A DNA stretch of 39,914 bases from NCBI GenBank assembly GCA_902565895.1, contig CACFGV010000018.1:1-39914 (forward strand). The letters run 5' to 3'. Under the pieces are notes generated by a model. It had not been told where the DNA came from. It saw only the letters and a list, made by a program, of their open reading frames with translations, and made no database searches. The first letter of the stretch is position 1; each line of letters begins with the position of its first letter. The DNA is from K189A clade bacterium (GTDB lineage Bacteria > Pseudomonadota > Gammaproteobacteria > Pseudomonadales > Azotimanducaceae). The translations under genes and the position numbers were made by a program. Shown one piece after another: positions 16,899 to 25,383 of the stretch.

Positions 16899-17994
16899 TT
16901 ATGTAGCAAAGAGCCTTGAGTTTGCGCCAACGGTGAGTTGGGACGTGGTGACGTTAAAGTGCCGCGCCAGGAGGTACCGACGAAAGTCTACGAGCACTCG
17001 CTCTAACTCCACCAGCTTGCCCCTTCTTCTTCCAAAAAGGCCAGCGCGGCCTGTGAGGTCGAGTCTCTATAGTTGAGTCCCGAGGCGTCGGTGATGCCAC
17101 CTTGGTGCACTAGGCAGCGATTCGATGGCTCTGGTAGTACGGTAATCCAATCCAAAGATTGATAAGTGAGGACGCCGATAAAGCCCGGTGGGATCGAAAT
17201 CAGTAGATAGTGATTCAATGCGTTACTGTCGCTAATTAACCCCGTTAGATTTGACAAAGCCCCTTGAAAGCGTCCTGCGGTAACTCTCCAGCTTGCGCAG
17301 CCGGCGACATAAAAGGCGCTTTTAGTTGGGGTATACGGCTCCAGGGATTCTGGGTGTACTTTGAAAAGGTGATAGCTTTCCATGCCGTTTTCCGCCGCGA
17401 GTTTCCAATTACTGGACCAATGTTGTGGCTCACTATGGTAGCCGTTGGTGAATCGCTGCAAATCGAACTTCGTCAGATAGTTGTCTAAGCCCGCGAGTTT
17501 CTGCTCCAGGCTTACGTCAGATTCATGCAAGCAAACGAATACCAACCCATGCCAAGTATCCAAGGAAAACTTTGGCAGGCAGTGGCTTTGCCTATTTACC
17601 TCAATGTCACCGCTGTGTGGCAAACCGATCAGGACGCCTTGGTCGTTGTAAGTCCAGGCATGATAGGGGCATACGATGCGGTTGCTGATGTTACCGAAGC
17701 CATTATCCAGTAACGGTGTGCCTCGATGTCTGCATACATTAGACAGCGCTCTCAGTTGGCCGTCTTGTCCGCGTAAGACAGCGATGGGTCCACCAGCAAG
17801 CCTTAATGCACAGTAGTCACCAGGCTGTTGCAACTGCTGGGCTGCACAGACAAAAATCTAGTCGGTAAAAAAATATGTCGTTGCTCTGCTTCGTATAGCT
17901 CGGGGCTGATGTAGGCGTTAAACGGCAAGGCGTCTGCTTGCTCCAGATCCTGAGCCAGTGCCGATTTATAGTCGCGACATTGCTCTGAATTCAT
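16899..17994 (-). pseudogene. Rieske non-heme iron oxygenase alpha subunit, two frameshifts
   Basis: Three consecutive reading frames together give one ring-hydroxylating oxygenase alpha subunit. Frame one (from ATG 17994, six bases after AAGGAGG) encodes an N-terminus ending QRHIFLPTR. Adding one base to the T5 run at 17856-17852 continues into FVCAAQQLQQPGDY and the Rieske centre CRHRG...CPYHAW. The mononuclear iron motif is in NGMESYHLFKVH. That frame stops at 17003. Adding one base to the G4 run at 17023-17020 continues into KLVELERVLVDFRRYLLARHF, a typical C-terminus. The usual acidic, Gln-Arg-Gly region between these parts seems shortened. Either the gene is decaying or the assembly has homopolymer errors; two lesions plus shortening favour decay. 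Confidence 0.8.
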
Positions 17995-18723: not shown

Positions 18724-19335
18724 TCAGGCGCTGTACCCAGTTAACTTATCAATGGCAATCTCCACGGTCCTGCGGGCTTGCTTTGCGCTGAGGTTTTGGC
18801 TGTGTCGTAAGCTGACCCAAAATTCGATGCCCAAGGTTGCGTCTATGGCCTCGAATAGTGGTCGGTCTTGGCGCAACGCAGCTGGCAATACCTTGTTGAG
18901 TCGCTGTCTTCTTTGCGTTGCTGGAACGCTTGCGGGTCTGTTGTGGGTGTGGGTTGATCGTTGCCGCTGAAAGAGTGGCGAGATATAGATTGGTAGCAGA
19001 TGTTCGTAGATGCGAGACCGCCGATCAATGATGTGAGTGAGCTGTAGCCGCCATTGCTCTGGTGTGGCAATGGATTCTGGAAACGGCTCATCCATGATGG
19101 CTTCGGCACTGTGCTCGGCAGCCTGAATCATCTGCTGATGCAGTGACTCTGCCTCGGCAAAATGGCGAAACAAAGTCCGGGTTGTAATGCCCGCATGTTT
19201 GGCGATGTCGGTTGTAGTGGGTTCTAAATTACCGCTGAGCATAAGGTCGCGAGCGGCAGCCAATATGCGTAGTCGTGTTTGTTCGGTGCGTTCGTGGCGC
19301 CCGTCTAATTTTTTAACTTTAGTGGAATCAGCCAT
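18724..19335 (-). CDS. TetR-family transcriptional regulator
   Basis: This protein of about 203 aa has an N-terminal TetR helix-turn-helix (about 20-65) including TTDIAKHAGITTRTLFRHF. The C-terminal domain is not diagnostic. Its start overlaps the end of the TauD-like dioxygenase gene by 8 bases, so it is the last gene of the selenoprotein B/TauD/TetR unit and probably autoregulates that operon. A GTCT-TAG-AGAC dyad at 21493-21503, upstream of the first gene, is a candidate site. An upstream TTG at 19350 is an alternative start. Confidence 0.85.
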   Translation of the reverse strand: MADSTKVKKLDGRHERTEQTRLRILAAARDLMLSGNLEPTTTDIAKHAGITTRTLFRHFAEAESLHQQMIQAAEHSAEAIMDEPFPESIATPEQWRLQLTHIIDRRSRIYEHLLPIYISPLFQRQRSTHTHNRPASVPATQRRQRLNKVLPAALRQDRPLFEAIDATLGIEFWVSLRHSQNLSAKQARRTVEIAIDKLTGYSA

Positions 19336-20182
19336 CGGTCGCACGAGCAAGCACTTGGCAGCGCTTCATAAGGCGTCGGGTATTGTTGTCAAAGTCGTCT
19401 CTACGGTGCAGTACTCGTCGGTTGTCCCAAACGATTAGGTCGTTAGGTTGCCAGGTTTGCTGCCACACGTTCTGTGCAAGTGCGGCATAGGACCACAGCT
19501 CGTCCAATAGTGCTTCGCTGTCGCTCAGGGATAAACCTGGAATGTACGCCCACTCGCGGCGTCCTAGATAGAGTGCTTGTTTGCCGGTTTCTTCGTGGGT
19601 TCGGATGATCGGGTGAATGCTTCCAGGAGCGTCTCTAGGGTCATCAAATGGCTCGTATCCTGGGCGCAGGCTGCCGATGCTTGTATGGGCGGCGTCGTGC
19701 TTGATGCTTAGATCGCTGATGCGTTGCCTCAGCGATTCAGGAAGTGCGGCGTAGGCTGCTGCTTGATCGGCAAAATAGGTATCGCCGCCGACCGGTGGAA
19801 TTTCAATACCCAGCAGCACGCTTGCTGGGGGCGGTGTATCGACGTAGGTCATGTCGGAATGCCAAGACGCCTCTGCGTTACCCAATCCGCCAATAGCTTT
19901 ACCGTTGATGCGAATGTTGGACAAAACCGTCACGTAAATGTTCGTAATTTTTGCTCGATCTTGTTCCGACATGCGACCCAAGGGCATTTCCTCCAGCGGT
20001 CCGAAACGTGCGCTGAACTGTTGCAGAGCGTTATCGTCTAAAGACTGATTGCGAATACGTATTACGCCAAACTGCAGCCAGGCGTCGTAGATTTGTTCAA
20101 AGTCGCCGCTGCTAATAGCTTGTAGATCAACGTCTTCGATGTCTGCGACAAACTGTGCATTTCCGATGGGGTTGATGCGCAT
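19328..20182 (-). CDS. TauD/TfdA-family 2-oxoglutarate dioxygenase
   Basis: This is a 284-aa Fe(II)/2-oxoglutarate oxygenase. The iron ligands are H108 and D110 in WHSDMTY and H259 near the C-terminus; arginines 11-15 residues later (RRLMKR) include the 2-oxoglutarate-binding one. Family members hydroxylate taurine, 2,4-D-like aryloxyacetates, carnitine precursors or alkylsulfates, so the substrate is open. It starts 19 bases after the selenoprotein B-like gene and overlaps the TetR gene downstream. The pairing of a 2OG oxygenase with a GrdB-like selenoprotein suggests an aerobic pathway, contrary to classical glycine reductase. Confidence 0.88.
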   Translation of the reverse strand: MRINPIGNAQFVADIEDVDLQAISSGDFEQIYDAWLQFGVIRIRNQSLDDNALQQFSARFGPLEEMPLGRMSEQDRAKITNIYVTVLSNIRINGKAIGGLGNAEASWHSDMTYVDTPPPASVLLGIEIPPVGGDTYFADQAAAYAALPESLRQRISDLSIKHDAAHTSIGSLRPGYEPFDDPRDAPGSIHPIIRTHEETGKQALYLGRREWAYIPGLSLSDSEALLDELWSYAALAQNVWQQTWQPNDLIVWDNRRVLHRRDDFDNNTRRLMKRCQVLARATDG

Positions 20183-20201: not shown

Positions 20202-21410
20202 TTAAGCGTCCATTTCTGTTTCGGCGCGCAATTCCACAGCGCTGCGGGGTACTAAAATACGCACGAACTGTTCCAAGTCAGGGGCTTGGCCTAACCGTTC
20301 CGCCAACAGCGCTAAGCCGTCTGCTAGTACCGTTTGAGTCCACAGCAGTTTATGTAGGTTTGCTGGGTTCTGCTCGCCTGGTTGCGCGGTCATGGCTTCT
20401 AGGTAGTAGGTTTTGGCGTCTTCGCTGGCGTGTTTGAACCAGACTAAGTCGTCTGTCGGTAAGGTGGCCGTGTCTAGGTGCTCAGCCAGTCGCCGAATGA
20501 TCTCCTCGATTGATGTGTTTGATACACCTGCAAGAGTGCGGCCGTTGCGACGTCGCTTGCCGAGGTCATACCAGGGTTTGAGGGAAGAGAGTTCATGACT
20601 CAGGCGGTCGCTCCATGATGTGCTTTCGCTGGTAGGTCTTATAAAACTGACTGGGCAGGCCATTGCAGTTGCGTGATCCTGGTCAGGTGCTTCTTCTGGA
20701 AAGTCTTCAAGCACCGGTCCGTTAGAGCGGTTCAATAAATCCAGGCCTGCTGCGATCACCCGGTGCTGAAAGTCAGGATTGTTAGCAGCACCCAATGGGC
20801 GTCCTAGCGGAAAGGGCACCCATAGCGATCTGGGCGGCGACAGGCTTAGCGCATTTTCACGCACTAAACTGATGCCGGTGGTCATAATGCCTTCGCGTTC
20901 AAGGTAATAGCTGATCGCGCACACGGCGCGGGTGCAGTTGGGTCAGACCGGGGTCAGAAATACTGCGTCGACTCGGTCCTGTTTAAGCATACCGGCCAAT
21001 TGAACCGTGCTGTGTTGGTATCGTTCAGGGAGGAGCCCCGCACCCATAAAGCTGTAATGCACACGGGCCAGGCTGCCAATCACGCCCGTGGTTTCCAGCT
21101 CTTTAAAGCGGTCGATGGGATAAACCATGTTCACATCCTCAGCGAAGCCTGAACGATCAAAGTTCACCGAGCTGTGGGACATGACTAGGTCGTGAGCGTT
21201 TTCGTTGTTACCGATGGGGCGATATGTAGCGTCGCTAAACTTAAATGCTGGATCGTCGCGAAAATGCAGGCCTGCAGTGGTAATCAAAGCGATACGTAAT
21301 AGCGCTGACGCTTTGCTGTTATTAACCCACACTGGCGGGCCTAATGGCGGCATGTTCTTGGCAAGCAGGTGCTCGCGTTCGGATTCCGGTAGGTCGCTTA
21401 GGCGCACCAT
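20202..21410 (-). CDS. GrdB-like selenoprotein B family protein with in-frame UGA (Sec)
   Basis: The gene encodes 402 residues if the single in-frame TGA (20945-20943) is read as selenocysteine U156. Upstream, MVRLSDLPESEREHLL and AHDLVMSHSSVNFDRSGF are features of the glycine/sarcosine/betaine reductase selenoprotein B family. VDAVFLTPV leads directly into U-P-N-C-T-R-A-V, where relatives carry Cys or Sec as the redox pair UxxC/CxxC. Downstream the same frame continues with family-typical SLWVPFPLGRPLGAANNPDFQ. A stem-loop with the right spacing follows the TGA. ATG 21410 has a GGGAGAG ribosome binding site; the frame is open to 21509. It heads a unit with TauD and TetR genes. The reaction is unknown; selenoprotein synthesis requires selABCD elsewhere in the genome. 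Confidence 0.85.
20911..20937 (-). promoter_or_regulatory. candidate bacterial SECIS element
   Basis: Twelve bases after the TGA, a perfect 5-bp stem CGCGC (20930-20926)/GCGCG (20920-20916) closes a 5-base loop CGTGT. The loop has G in its second position and begins 17 bases after the stop. A short lower stem CTG (20937-20935)/CAG (20913-20911) extends it. Stem, loop size, loop G and distance fit the bacterial SECIS model in which SelB binds the apical loop. The hairpin lies inside coding sequence, as bacterial SECIS elements do. Confidence 0.6.
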
Positions 21411-21492
21411 AGATGAGTCTCTCCCGTGTGGTGAGGCTGGCTTCGGGCTACACCCTCGATCTTTCGTCATGATGTTGAGTGATAAAACTAAT

Positions 21493-21503
21493 GTCTTAGA
21501 GAC
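21493..21503. promoter_or_regulatory. candidate operator upstream of the selenoprotein operon
   Basis: GTCT-TAG-AGAC is a perfect short dyad, 82 bases before the selenoprotein ATG in a 173-bp spacer. A consensus TTGACA (-35, minus strand, 21528-21523) is nearby, though I find no well-placed -10 for it. It may serve the TetR encoded at the end of this operon. Confidence 0.3.
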
Positions 21504-21583
21504 TGACAATAGTTTGATTTTGTGTCAACGAGTGCGTGGCCTCGGCGGATGCTTAGCTTTTAAGTGCTCCGGCTTATCGGCGT

Positions 21584-22251: not shown

Positions 22252-22605
22252 TTAGTCGATCCTGCGCATAAAGCGAACATTCATCTGCAGATAGGCGTTA
22301 CTGTTGGGGTGTTTTGCCCAGATATCCCGCCAACCTTGTTGCGTCATGATGCTGTTAAATTGTTCGTCTCGCGCGGCCTTACTGGGCCAGCGGATAATCC
22401 AGCAGACGTTAGGTTGACCGTTCGCAGGTGGCACCGCATTGGTGCCTGAAACCTCCGCGTCGTAGCCGTCCTCCATCCAAAAGTCCACCAAATCAAGGTG
22501 CTGCCGCAGCCAGGGTACTGCCAGTTCGGTAGCCCATCGCCGATAGGCGTCCAGCCAATCAGCGTCGATGGTATAGTCGCGAACCTCGACGATTTCTTTT
22601 GTCAT
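22252..22605 (-). CDS. NIPSNAP-like small protein
   Basis: This is a 117-aa ferredoxin-like-fold protein of the dimeric alpha-beta barrel/NIPSNAP type. The start MTKEIVEVRDYTI has the EVRxYxI strand. A central FWMEDGYDAEVSG and CWIIRWPSKAARDEQF match the family pattern, where the second half begins with VxxIxxWxSxxxRxxxF. The function is not established; related small barrels in catabolic operons are often minor enzymes or binding proteins. It lies 13 bases after the esterase and 8 before the cyclase. Confidence 0.7.
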   Translation of the reverse strand: MTKEIVEVRDYTIDADWLDAYRRWATELAVPWLRQHLDLVDFWMEDGYDAEVSGTNAVPPANGQPNVCWIIRWPSKAARDEQFNSIMTQQGWRDIWAKHPNSNAYLQMNVRFMRRID

Positions 22606-22618
22606 GGCAAAACCTCCG

Positions 22619-23689
22619 TCACTTGTCTTTCAAGGATGAAGCGAAACTGTAAAGCGAGCGTGCGCTGTCTTGGTAGATATCCGGCACGATATCCGGCATC
22701 GATACATCTGCAGCATGACTGGTACCAAGCACCACTCGACCAACCGCAGAAACTTCAGCGGCCTGAAGTTTGCGCAAAAACGCAATGCCTTCATCGCGCA
22801 GCGGATCGAGTTCGTTCATTGATAGGACATGGGGCGGTAATCCTTGCAGGTCTTCGACGCTTGCTTGCAGAGGCCAAGCAAGAGGGTTGTTGGCATTGGC
22901 TAATTCTGAGTCATAAACTCTCACCATGATCTGCATACTGCTGCTGCTAAGCAGGTAACCGTCGTTCTCTTGCAAAGATGGCAGCTCAGGTGGCTGCTCG
23001 CGATAGGCACCAGAAATGTATGGGCAAAACGCATAAACGCCATTTATTTGCTCAGCCCAGCCCTCCTGCTTGGCTTTTAAGGTAGTGGCAATAGATAAGT
23101 TTCCGCCACCAGATTCGCCCGAAATAGTAAGGGTCGAAATATCCAGTTCCCGGCGGTTGGCATGAGTCCACTGCACAGCGCTGGCACAGTCGTTCAAACC
23201 TGCAGGAAAAGGATGAGCGCCGAGCTTGCCGCCGCCGTTGCGGAACTCAACGCCAACAACAACTAGGCCCATGGACGCCAGGGTATTGCGCCAACGAACA
23301 AAAACAGGATCCGCGGCGGTCATTAGTACCATGCCACCGCCATGAGTGTGCACCAAGCAGGGCAGTGGGCCTGCACGATCTGCGGGCTGATGGATGTACA
23401 GAGTAATGTCGTTGTCGTCGACCCCCTTGATCACAGTTTCGCTACTGACAACACTCGGAAAGTCGGGCATGGCCTGCCAATCCATCGGGTGTGACAGCGC
23501 CGCTGCTTTTTCAAAAGCAGCACAGTAGGTCAGCGCCTCTTCGTAGCTGGCGTTAGTGTCGATTTGGGTAACGCCAGGTGCCAACTCACCCAACATAGCC
23601 ATCGTTCTAGCGATACGCGGATCGGTGCGCGGATCACTGACTAAGGTTTCCTCAGGATTGCCCAGTCTTCCAGGTAATTTATCGGTCAT
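22619..23689 (-). CDS. alpha/beta hydrolase, hormone-sensitive-lipase (family IV) esterase
   Basis: This 356-aa esterase has all catalytic elements. HTHGGGM (about 113-119) is the oxyanion motif and SGESGGG (about 190-196) holds the nucleophile. The acid is in NELDPLRDEG and the His in GTSHAAD. The N-terminal 60-residue cap contains a DPRTDPRI stretch seen in some family IV enzymes. It is the first gene of the esterase/NIPSNAP/cyclase unit and would release an acyl or carboxylate group from the pathway substrate. It differs clearly from the esterase at 13424, which has Glu in place of the acidic Asp. Confidence 0.88.
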   Translation of the reverse strand: MTDKLPGRLGNPEETLVSDPRTDPRIARTMAMLGELAPGVTQIDTNASYEEALTYCAAFEKAAALSHPMDWQAMPDFPSVVSSETVIKGVDDNDITLYIHQPADRAGPLPCLVHTHGGGMVLMTAADPVFVRWRNTLASMGLVVVGVEFRNGGGKLGAHPFPAGLNDCASAVQWTHANRRELDISTLTISGESGGGNLSIATTLKAKQEGWAEQINGVYAFCPYISGAYREQPPELPSLQENDGYLLSSSSMQIMVRVYDSELANANNPLAWPLQASVEDLQGLPPHVLSMNELDPLRDEGIAFLRKLQAAEVSAVGRVVLGTSHAADVSMPDIVPDIYQDSARSLYSFASSLKDK

Positions 23690-23826: not shown

Positions 23827-25383
23827 TTAGACAATACGCGACTGTCCATCCCCCCAATACTTATCCCGTAGCAAGCGCTTATACAGCTTGCCGGTGGGCA
23901 GGCGTGGCATTTCATCAATGTAGTCCACTGACCGTGGAATCTTTTGTCGCGACAGGTGTTCGCTTAGGTAACCCAGAATTTCGTCTGTGAGTTTGTCATC
24001 GCCGATGACGCCAGTGATGGGTTGCACAACGGCTTTGACCTCCTCCCCAAGATCGGTGTTGGGTACACCAAATACCGCCGCGTCTTCGATCTTGGGATGA
24101 GAGATCAGCAGGTCTTCGCATTCCTGGGGGTAAATATTCACACCACCAGAAATGATCATGAAGGTCTTGCGGTCGGTTAAGTATAAGAAACCGTCTGCGT
24201 CGACATAGCCAACATCACCTACCGTGGTCATACTGCCGTCGCTGGACGTGGACTCGGCGGTTTTTTCTGGGTCGTTGTGGTAACTGAACTCAGTAGCTGT
24301 TTTAAACCACAGGGTGCCGGGCTCGCCCATAGGCAGCGGCTGCATTTCGTCATCAAGCACGGCTAATTCGCCTAACACAACTTTGCCTACGGTGCCTTTG
24401 TGCTCGAGCCATTCCTCGGTATTACAGGCGGCAAAGCCCAGGCCTTCTGTAGCGCCGTAGTATTCGTGAATGATCGGCCCCCACCAATCGATCATTTGTT
24501 CTTTCACCATTACCGGGCAAGGTGCTGCGGCGTGTACCGCAACGCGTAGGGATGACAGATCGTGGCGATTTCGGTCTTGCTCCGGCAGCTTCAACATGCG
24601 GCTGAACATGGTGGGCACCAGTTGCGAGTGGCTGACCTGATAGCGCTCAACCAGGGCCAGATACTCCATGGCATCGAAGCGTTCCATGATGATAACGGTG
24701 CCGCCAATGCGAAGTGCTAGGTTCACCGCGGCCTGGGGTGCGGAGTGATAAAGCGGTGCCGGGGACAAGTACACCATGTCCTCTTGGTAGCCCCAAAGTT
24801 GGCCCAGAAACTGGAAAATTGGCAATGGCTCTGCGGGTGACTGCATCGGCAAGGGACGAATGATGCCCTTGGGACGACCGGTGGTTCCTGACGAGTACAG
24901 CATCGACGTACCTAACTGTTCGTTGTCGATCGGTGCATCACTGTGCTCAGCGCAGGCGTCTGCGTAGTCCTGGCAAATGCCACTGAGGGTGTTAGTGTCG
25001 CCATCGACGACCAAAATTAACTTCAGTTGTGGACAACTTGCAGCTGCGGCCAGGGCAACCTCTTGCTTGGCGATACTGGTGATGAGTACCTGAGATTCTG
25101 AATTTTGAATGATGTAGGCGACTTCTTCGGCGGTAAGGAATGAGTTGATGCAGGTGTAATACAACCCAGCTCTTTCGCCTGCGGCACAGGCCTCAAGGTA
25201 ACGATTGTTATTCTCCATGAACACCGAGTAGTGGTCTTCATGAACCAAACCTTGGGCTCTCAATAGTTGCGCGAGCCGATTGCTGCGCCCTTCGAATTCG
25301 GCATAGCTGACGGTTTCGCCAGTGTTGGCCATGATGAAGGCGGCGCGGTCAGGGTGTGTGGTTGCGTATTTTCCCGGGTACAT
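23827..25383 (-). CDS. AMP-dependent acyl-CoA synthetase / ligase
   Basis: This is a 518-aa member of the ANL superfamily. MLYSSGTTGRPKGI (about 167-180) is the phosphate-binding loop. YGATEGLG, YLTDRKTFMIISGGVNIYP and PRLPTGKLYKR supply the aryl/acyl-AMP, hinge and catalytic-lysine (about 501) motifs. It activates a carboxylic acid to its CoA thioester with ATP. The gene is on the same strand as the esterase operon, separated by a 137-bp spacer with an inverted repeat, so it likely serves the same catabolic block. ATG 25383 follows AGAGAGGAG. The acyl specificity is not predictable. Confidence 0.92.
   Translation of the reverse strand: MYPGKYATTHPDRAAFIMANTGETVSYAEFEGRSNRLAQLLRAQGLVHEDHYSVFMENNNRYLEACAAGERAGLYYTCINSFLTAEEVAYIIQNSESQVLITSIAKQEVALAAAASCPQLKLILVVDGDTNTLSGICQDYADACAEHSDAPIDNEQLGTSMLYSSGTTGRPKGIIRPLPMQSPAEPLPIFQFLGQLWGYQEDMVYLSPAPLYHSAPQAAVNLALRIGGTVIIMERFDAMEYLALVERYQVSHSQLVPTMFSRMLKLPEQDRNRHDLSSLRVAVHAAAPCPVMVKEQMIDWWGPIIHEYYGATEGLGFAACNTEEWLEHKGTVGKVVLGELAVLDDEMQPLPMGEPGTLWFKTATEFSYHNDPEKTAESTSSDGSMTTVGDVGYVDADGFLYLTDRKTFMIISGGVNIYPQECEDLLISHPKIEDAAVFGVPNTDLGEEVKAVVQPITGVIGDDKLTDEILGYLSEHLSRQKIPRSVDYIDEMPRLPTGKLYKRLLRDKYWGDGQSRIV

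Follow-up and report, generated by a model that had tools for sequence, protein, structure and literature searches.

A long-form PrdB/GrdB-like gene with an in-frame TGA, very probably encoding a selenoprotein, next to a TauD-type dioxygenase gene in a K189A clade bacterium

The window analyzed here, a 39,914-nucleotide stretch of DNA from a K189A clade bacterium (Gammaproteobacteria; contig CACFGV010000018.1), carries on its minus strand a long-form PrdB/GrdB-like gene with a single in-frame TGA (20202..21410; 402 amino acids plus a TAA stop at 20202-20204). The ORF list of the window gives two entries at this place, 20943..21509 (minus strand, TTG start, 188 amino acids) and 20202..20924 (minus strand, GTG start, 240 amino acids), which share one frame and are separated by a lone stop. 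With this TGA (20943..20945, minus strand, codon 156) read as selenocysteine (Sec), the junction becomes AVFLTPV-U-PNCTRAVCAISYYLE (AVFLTPV*PNCTRAVCAISYYLE when left untranslated) and minus-strand positions 21410 to 20202 encode one protein. An earlier note on this DNA had joined the two ORFs in this way and had placed the TGA at a Cys/Sec redox position, and both points hold: the codon supplies the U of a U-P-N-C motif, and the Sec partner in this motif, Cys159 (20934..20936, minus strand), is invariant among 42 aligned sequences. The ATG at 21410 (MVRL...) is the start conserved among relatives and gives the length of 402 amino acids; a GGGAG lies 11 to 15 bases upstream of it. Elsewhere in the window TGA acts as an ordinary stop as well, given that it terminates 9 of the 24 ORFs checked.

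The flanking genes described here are all encoded on the minus strand. Downstream of the selenoprotein gene, after a gap of 19 bp, begins a TauD/TfdA-family dioxygenase gene (19328..20182; PF02668, 204 bits); its translation contains an H-x-D motif (HSD) and a later His, which presumably are the metal ligands. The end of the dioxygenase gene is overlapped by a gene for a TetR-family regulator (18724..19350; neighbor cluster 1, 15/81 loci). On the upstream side lie a cyclase-family gene (PF04199; 21584..22243; neighbor cluster 12, 6/81 loci), a gene for a small protein with a weak DUF1428 match under the cut-off (22252..22605; neighbor cluster 11, 6/81 loci), an alpha/beta hydrolase gene (22619..23689) and a gene whose translation we take, from a motif, to be a probable AMP-forming acyl-CoA ligase (23827..25383; neighbor cluster 3). 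Neighboring ORFs were defined by a simple longest-ORF pick, with no gene caller, and small or overlapping neighbors may therefore be wrong. The window also holds a Rieske-type oxygenase piece of 276 amino acids at 17003-17833, which among NCBIfam models is matched best by one for glycine betaine monooxygenase, at a score far under that model's cut-off and no further than model position 227 of 420; this gene may have been cut short or frameshifted.

The N-terminal PrdB/GrdB-like domain of the protein comprises residues 1-240 (20691..21410, minus strand). Pfam GRDB (PF07355) matches residues 39-153 at 35.9 bits against a gathering score of 22, although with a partial profile only (227-345 of 347). 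The best NCBIfam model is PrdB (TIGR04483; 117.2 bits over residues 23-227, below its cut-off of 300), the Grd models reach 49.7-57.1 bits (cut-offs 65.45-800), and all five matching Prd/Grd models thus score under their cut-offs. The earlier note had assigned the protein to a GrdB-like family; the superfamily stands, while the nearest curated model is PrdB and not GrdB (117 vs 50-57 bits) and the protein is of a long form that carries a helical domain at its C-terminus. Residues from about 228 onward are matched by none of the Pfam or NCBIfam models. The AlphaFold2 model (mean pLDDT 87.5; 42 sequences, Cys replacing Sec) predicts an alpha/beta domain with residue 156 between a strand (149-153) and a helix (157-172), followed by residues 245-261, modeled with low confidence, and by an all-helical part, residues 266-401 (20208..20615, minus strand), which lies outside the Pfam and NCBIfam matches. 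The low-confidence linker contains Cys252 (ACPVSF; codon 20655..20657, minus strand), which, like Cys159 and position 156 (Sec or Cys), is invariant in the 42 sequences. A Foldseek comparison of the model with PDB and viral models gave 0 matches at E <= 0.001, a phmmer search of PDB sequences returned 4 matches, each with E >= 0.42, and PHROGs gave none.

Homologs were collected from genome contigs using a long-form profile in which X stood for the TGA, as well as two peptide patterns avoiding the TGA. This confirmed 327 homologous loci, and locus counts refer to the best-scoring 80 of these. Within the best 80 of 327, the aligned codon is TGA in 72 and TGT or TGC (Cys) in 8. When 12 loci from a class-wide genome sample, window included, are added to the 80 from genome contigs (92 loci, 96 ORFs, 97 alignments), position 156 is U in 84 alignments, C in 12 (8 long and 4 short forms) and uncovered in 1, and no residue other than Sec or Cys occurs in the 96 covering alignments. 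A second in-frame TGA is present in 4/97 alignments (L103, L113, L146, and L167), and a further stop besides the TGA in 4 of the top 20 places from a protein search of genus and outside genomes. Record titles of the best 80 of 327 loci name Gamma-, Alpha-, and Betaproteobacteria, Desulfuromonadaceae, Geobacter, Desulfomonile, Acidimicrobiia, and Chloroflexi, some of them doubtful. At the protein level, 34/37 same-genus genomes contain at least one match, as opposed to 1/21 searched outside the genus; the long-form profile matches 8/369 sampled class genomes at E <= 1e-10 (own genome included), so the family is common in the genus and uncommon in the class at large.

The earlier note had also called for an alignment of the joined protein with Cys homologs, and one such homolog, L133, is indeed continuous, with 50% identity over 393 columns. 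In six pairwise comparisons, codons 157-240 differ at 0.52-0.57 of their third positions and at 0.10-0.20 of their first and second positions; judged from these comparisons, the region downstream of the TGA is evolving as protein. Synonymous distances are close to saturation or past it, and a dN/dS ratio is therefore omitted. A tree of 78 long-form rows (a quick method without bootstrap; partial rows L127, L134, L144, and L167 excluded) unites the 8 Cys rows in one clade (SH-aLRT 100; titles Halieaceae, Luminiphilus, Halioglobus, Gammaproteobacteria, and SAR86) and needs one change. With the tree rooted on the second long paralog of the window's own genome, we read this change as a single replacement of Sec by Cys. 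Four loci (L150, L155, L163, and L164) carry the TGA-containing motif twice, about 1.2-1.3 kb apart in L150, L155, and L164, and are probably tandem long-form selenoprotein genes.

A SECIS-like mRNA hairpin with 5 bp and a 5-nt loop, CGUGU, is located 13-27 nt past the TGA (20916..20930, minus strand). Bases 13-17 pair with bases 23-27. Among the 71 distinct TGA copies, 57 form all 5 pairs and the other 14 form 4, whereas the 8 Cys copies retain just one or two. Taking the window and the TGA copies together (72 distinct rows), 96.1% of the cells pair, compared to 8.6-79.4% when the partner is slid by 1-3 columns. The hairpin shows 12 two-sided changes and a covariation score of 0.204, and 0/500 shuffles were as high in paired fraction, in two-sided cells or in covariation score; the number of pairs with a two-sided change is 2, which was reached in 125/500 shuffles, and the versions slid by +1, -3, and +3 have 2-3 such pairs with up to 10 such cells. 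RNAalifold recovers the same hairpin unprompted from the alignment. Folding of single sequences is unremarkable (z of -0.90 for the window, with 37/200 shuffles folding equally well): L120 and L145 favor an alternative fold over the hairpin, and in the Cys copy L133 the hairpin that folds at the site is in a different register. We discount the GU of the loop because it belongs to an invariant Val codon that is present in the Cys copies, too. Rfam gave no match within the window at gathering scores; the element was found by alignment. On this alignment, TGA copies conserve the hairpin, in part through compensatory changes, and Cys copies have lost it.

The earlier note had further suggested looking for selA, selB, selC, and selD in the same genome, and this was borne out in part. 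The assembly of the own genome, with a size of 2.02 Mb and a completeness of 68.8%, contains selD above cut-off (274.6 bits), and no selA, selB or tRNA-Sec over the cut-off was found in it; genus relatives have all three. Eight SelB-like matches there all score under the cut-off and are probably other translation GTPases, and 7 weak tRNA-Sec matches were rejected as ordinary tRNAs (3 Leu, 2 Ser, 1 Cys, and 1 Arg). ARAGORN found no tRNA within the window. Among same-genus genomes, selA is matched in 31/40 (own genome included), 29 of them above cut-off, and in 19/21 good ones, while tRNA-Sec is present in 24/40 and in 13/21 good ones (80 candidates scored per genome). ARAGORN reads a tRNA-Sec with anticodon TCA in 4/4 relatives' loci read, and selB adjoins selA in 2/2 relatives checked (378 and 425 bits vs a cut-off of 242). 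Testing by form (30 genomes from the 80 loci, comprising all 8 Cys-form genomes and 22/72 Sec-form ones) placed selA in 22/22 tested Sec-form genomes, one of them (G456) partial and under the cut-off, and in 5/8 Cys-form genomes. The missing selA, selB, and tRNA-Sec are best read as incompleteness of the own assembly. The earlier note would have abandoned its claim if the Sec machinery were absent and many homologs lacked Cys/Sec at this position; what we see is machinery in the genus and Sec or Cys in 96/97 alignments. As a separate observation, selD of the own genome (C9; L046 340-2508) lies within a 722-residue ORF, about twice the selD model length, which is perhaps an Ndh-SelD fusion like that mentioned in passages of PMC2398784.

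The own genome contains three further PrdB-like paralogs, C33:6233-7444 (L089), C1:23413-24057 (L187), and C9:45798-46433 (L186), in all of which a single in-frame TGA falls at a UPxC motif, and by sequence it likely possesses at least four Sec genes of the PrdB/GrdB superfamily.

The neighboring dioxygenase gene recurs in many of the homologous loci. A TauD-type gene occurs within 8 genes of the selenoprotein gene in 44/81 loci. Where a next gene exists (78 loci), it is a TauD-type gene on the same strand in 31; no TauD-type gene is seen in 37/81, some of which are cut by contig ends. In the Cys loci (n=8) it is positioned two genes upstream in 6 and three upstream in 1, and was not seen in the short Cys locus L132. 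The profile used to find these genes was built from neighbor clusters 0 and 4 themselves, with the one member of each that was tested being TauD by Pfam. There are 8 TauD-type genes in the own genome, a number at which we would expect chance to place one next to a particular gene only rarely. On the tree, presence and absence of the TauD-type gene need 11 changes, and related loci are non-independent. In the own genome, a distant short-form Sec paralog also adjoins a TauD-type gene, as is the case in 4 of the 20 short-form loci fetched.

We consider it very probable that TGA 20943-20945 is read as Sec and that the locus is one intact selenoprotein gene, not two genes. Comparison establishes gene continuity, Sec/Cys alternation, the hairpin in TGA copies, the machinery of the genus, and the dioxygenase linkage; Sec insertion itself, the redox chemistry, the substrate, and the lifestyle we infer. 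Other readings of the TGA fare poorly. A Cys or other codon could have turned into TGA by mutation or sequencing error, leaving the gene dead or misread, and a single TGA is the smallest lesion possible in a family in which Cys homologs exist; however, the identical TGA in 72/80 loci (best 80 of 327), under titles from several phyla, and the protein-like conservation past it make this the least credible account, and for the family we reject it on the strength of the Sec/Cys alignments, the 72/80 TGA loci, and the downstream coding conservation. Hardly more plausible are two proteins, with a stop at the TGA and a restart at GTG 20924 producing interacting halves. While this GTG is only 18 bases past the stop, starting there loses the conserved PNCTRAV stretch, and the Cys homolog L133 spans both halves without a break. 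Decoding of the TGA as an ordinary amino acid, via a reassigned code or near-cognate readthrough, would agree with selA, selB, and tRNA-Sec being unseen in the own assembly; yet TGA ends 9/24 of the checked ORFs in the window, Cys is the sole alternative residue seen, the hairpin is tied to TGA copies, and same-genus genomes possess the Sec machinery, which leaves very little room for this option.

What the selenoprotein does is a separate matter. The matches to PF07355 (36 bits vs a cut-off of 22) and TIGR04483 (117 bits) would suit a true subunit of D-proline or glycine/betaine/sarcosine reductase in Stickland-type metabolism, but the protein stays below the NCBIfam cut-offs of all five matching Prd/Grd models, and the next gene encodes an O2-using dioxygenase. 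Moreover, prdA was found in 0/40 genus genomes and grdA in 0/27 genomes (21 of the genus), absences that are suggestive only, as no control genome matched in either search. That the protein is a glycine or proline reductase subunit of this kind is highly unlikely. A true selenoprotein with a general thiol-redox or repair role, next to a dioxygenase gene by an accident of gene order, deserves far more attention and is a genuine if not favored possibility: one genome holds four paralogs with differing neighbors, and 37/81 loci show no TauD-type gene. On the other hand, 7/8 Cys loci keep a TauD-type gene nearby in another order, and such a gene adjoins the distant short-form paralog in 4/20 loci.

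The explanation we propose is a selenoprotein that works together with its neighbor. Ribosomes would decode the TGA as selenocysteine with the aid of the downstream mRNA hairpin (SECIS), which would bind SelB with Sec-tRNA. The resulting protein would present the Sec156-x-x-Cys159 pair at the start of a helix in its N-terminal PrdB/GrdB-like domain, followed by a low-confidence and probably flexible linker with the invariant Cys252 and by the C-terminal helical domain. In the resting enzyme, Sec156 and Cys159 would form an Se-S bond, and Cys252 may pass electrons in. For the function, the reading we favor, at about even confidence, is a selenol/thiol reductase of a catabolic pathway, which would act on the substrate or the product of the neighboring TauD-type dioxygenase. 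Its host would be an uncultured, oxygen-using and probably marine bacterium. GrdB-like proteins act on C-N bonds. Together with the C-F bond case proposed in PMC10838667, this chemistry makes reductive cleavage a first guess. More broadly, and with confidence falling a little short of even, we suggest that oxygen-using bacteria may possess a module of two enzymes, a TauD-type dioxygenase dependent on Fe(II) and 2-oxoglutarate and a PrdB-like selenoenzyme of the long form. The two would process one substrate in sequence, combining an O2 step with selenol-dependent reductive cleavage for the catabolism of marine organic compounds, and short-form paralogs would have been recruited to the same pairing.

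Comparison with known systems places the protein in a familiar superfamily, with several departures. It shares with PrdB of D-proline reductase (TIGR04483) the UxxC motif and homology over residues 23-227, but is about 160 residues longer at the C-terminus (model length 238); its gene has no PrdA partner that could be found in a search that matched no control genome, and lies beside the gene of an oxygen-using enzyme. Similarly, it matches the C-terminal part of the GrdB/GrdF/GrdH profiles (PF07355, TIGR01917/01918, NF040794/NF040795) around UxxC, whereas the N-terminal half of these profiles is unmatched (PF07355 from 227 of 347), scores are under the NCBIfam cut-offs, and grdA was not found, again with no control genome matching. 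Marine surveys have recorded relatives by name: in the passages cited, 42 PrdB-labelled selenoprotein genes were reported from surface seawater of the Sargasso Sea (2005; PMC1088965), and 235 Sec and 110 Cys forms of PrdB from GOS (2008; PMC2398784). These marine 'PrdB' proteins are likened to ours by family name and UxxC motif, and the same passages mention neither a long form nor a dioxygenase neighbor. FarB, a GrdB-like selenoprotein proposed for fluoroacetate and its C-F bond, offers in the part of PMC10838667 drawn on here a precedent for other chemistry on a non-amino-acid substrate; as described there, in contrast, it belongs to an anaerobe, works with a GrdE-like partner, FarE, and is encoded alongside a radical SAM protein. 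No FarE-like or radical SAM partner is found among the annotated neighbors of the window gene.

PrdB and GrdB are listed as proline and glycine reductases in the sections cited of the reviews PMC9312934 (2022) and PMC13188914 (2026), and the long form is not described in those of PMC1794560 and PMC12013277. Our literature search, which covered mainly papers outside subscription journals, returned no account of the long form or of its link with a dioxygenase. It seems that the selenoprotein belongs to a known superfamily and that its long form, wide range, and dioxygenase partner are new. Aerobic bacteria rarely keep selenoproteins, according to a passage of PMC13188914 (2026), and here a genome with oxygen-using enzymes has four superfamily genes whose shared motif contains an in-frame TGA. 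In marine surveys such genes probably go under the name of proline reductase, and a gene caller that stops at TGA would split them in two. The recurrent dioxygenase neighbor offers a lead to function, and the Cys clade provides a natural Sec/Cys comparison within one enzyme.

The short-form paralogs also have neighborhoods of their own. At L186 (5024-10896), the Sec paralog that shows the dioxygenase pairing adjoins a betaine-type transporter, being located among genes for a BCCT transporter, a TauD-type dioxygenase, an SSF symporter, and a glyoxalase-like protein (Pfam), and L198, L201, and L203 display the same neighbor clusters (Pfam was run on the L186 copies only). Such a neighborhood suggests uptake and breakdown of a betaine-like compound. 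The C1-type paralog, by comparison, is found near an operon resembling Na+-translocating NADH:quinone reductase in 10/20 short-form loci (L187-L195 and L205), a call based on an Rnf-Nqr subunit and a flavin/2Fe-2S subunit that Pfam identified in the L187 copies, the only ones searched. This paralog ends in a C-terminal CxxC(V/I)F tail.
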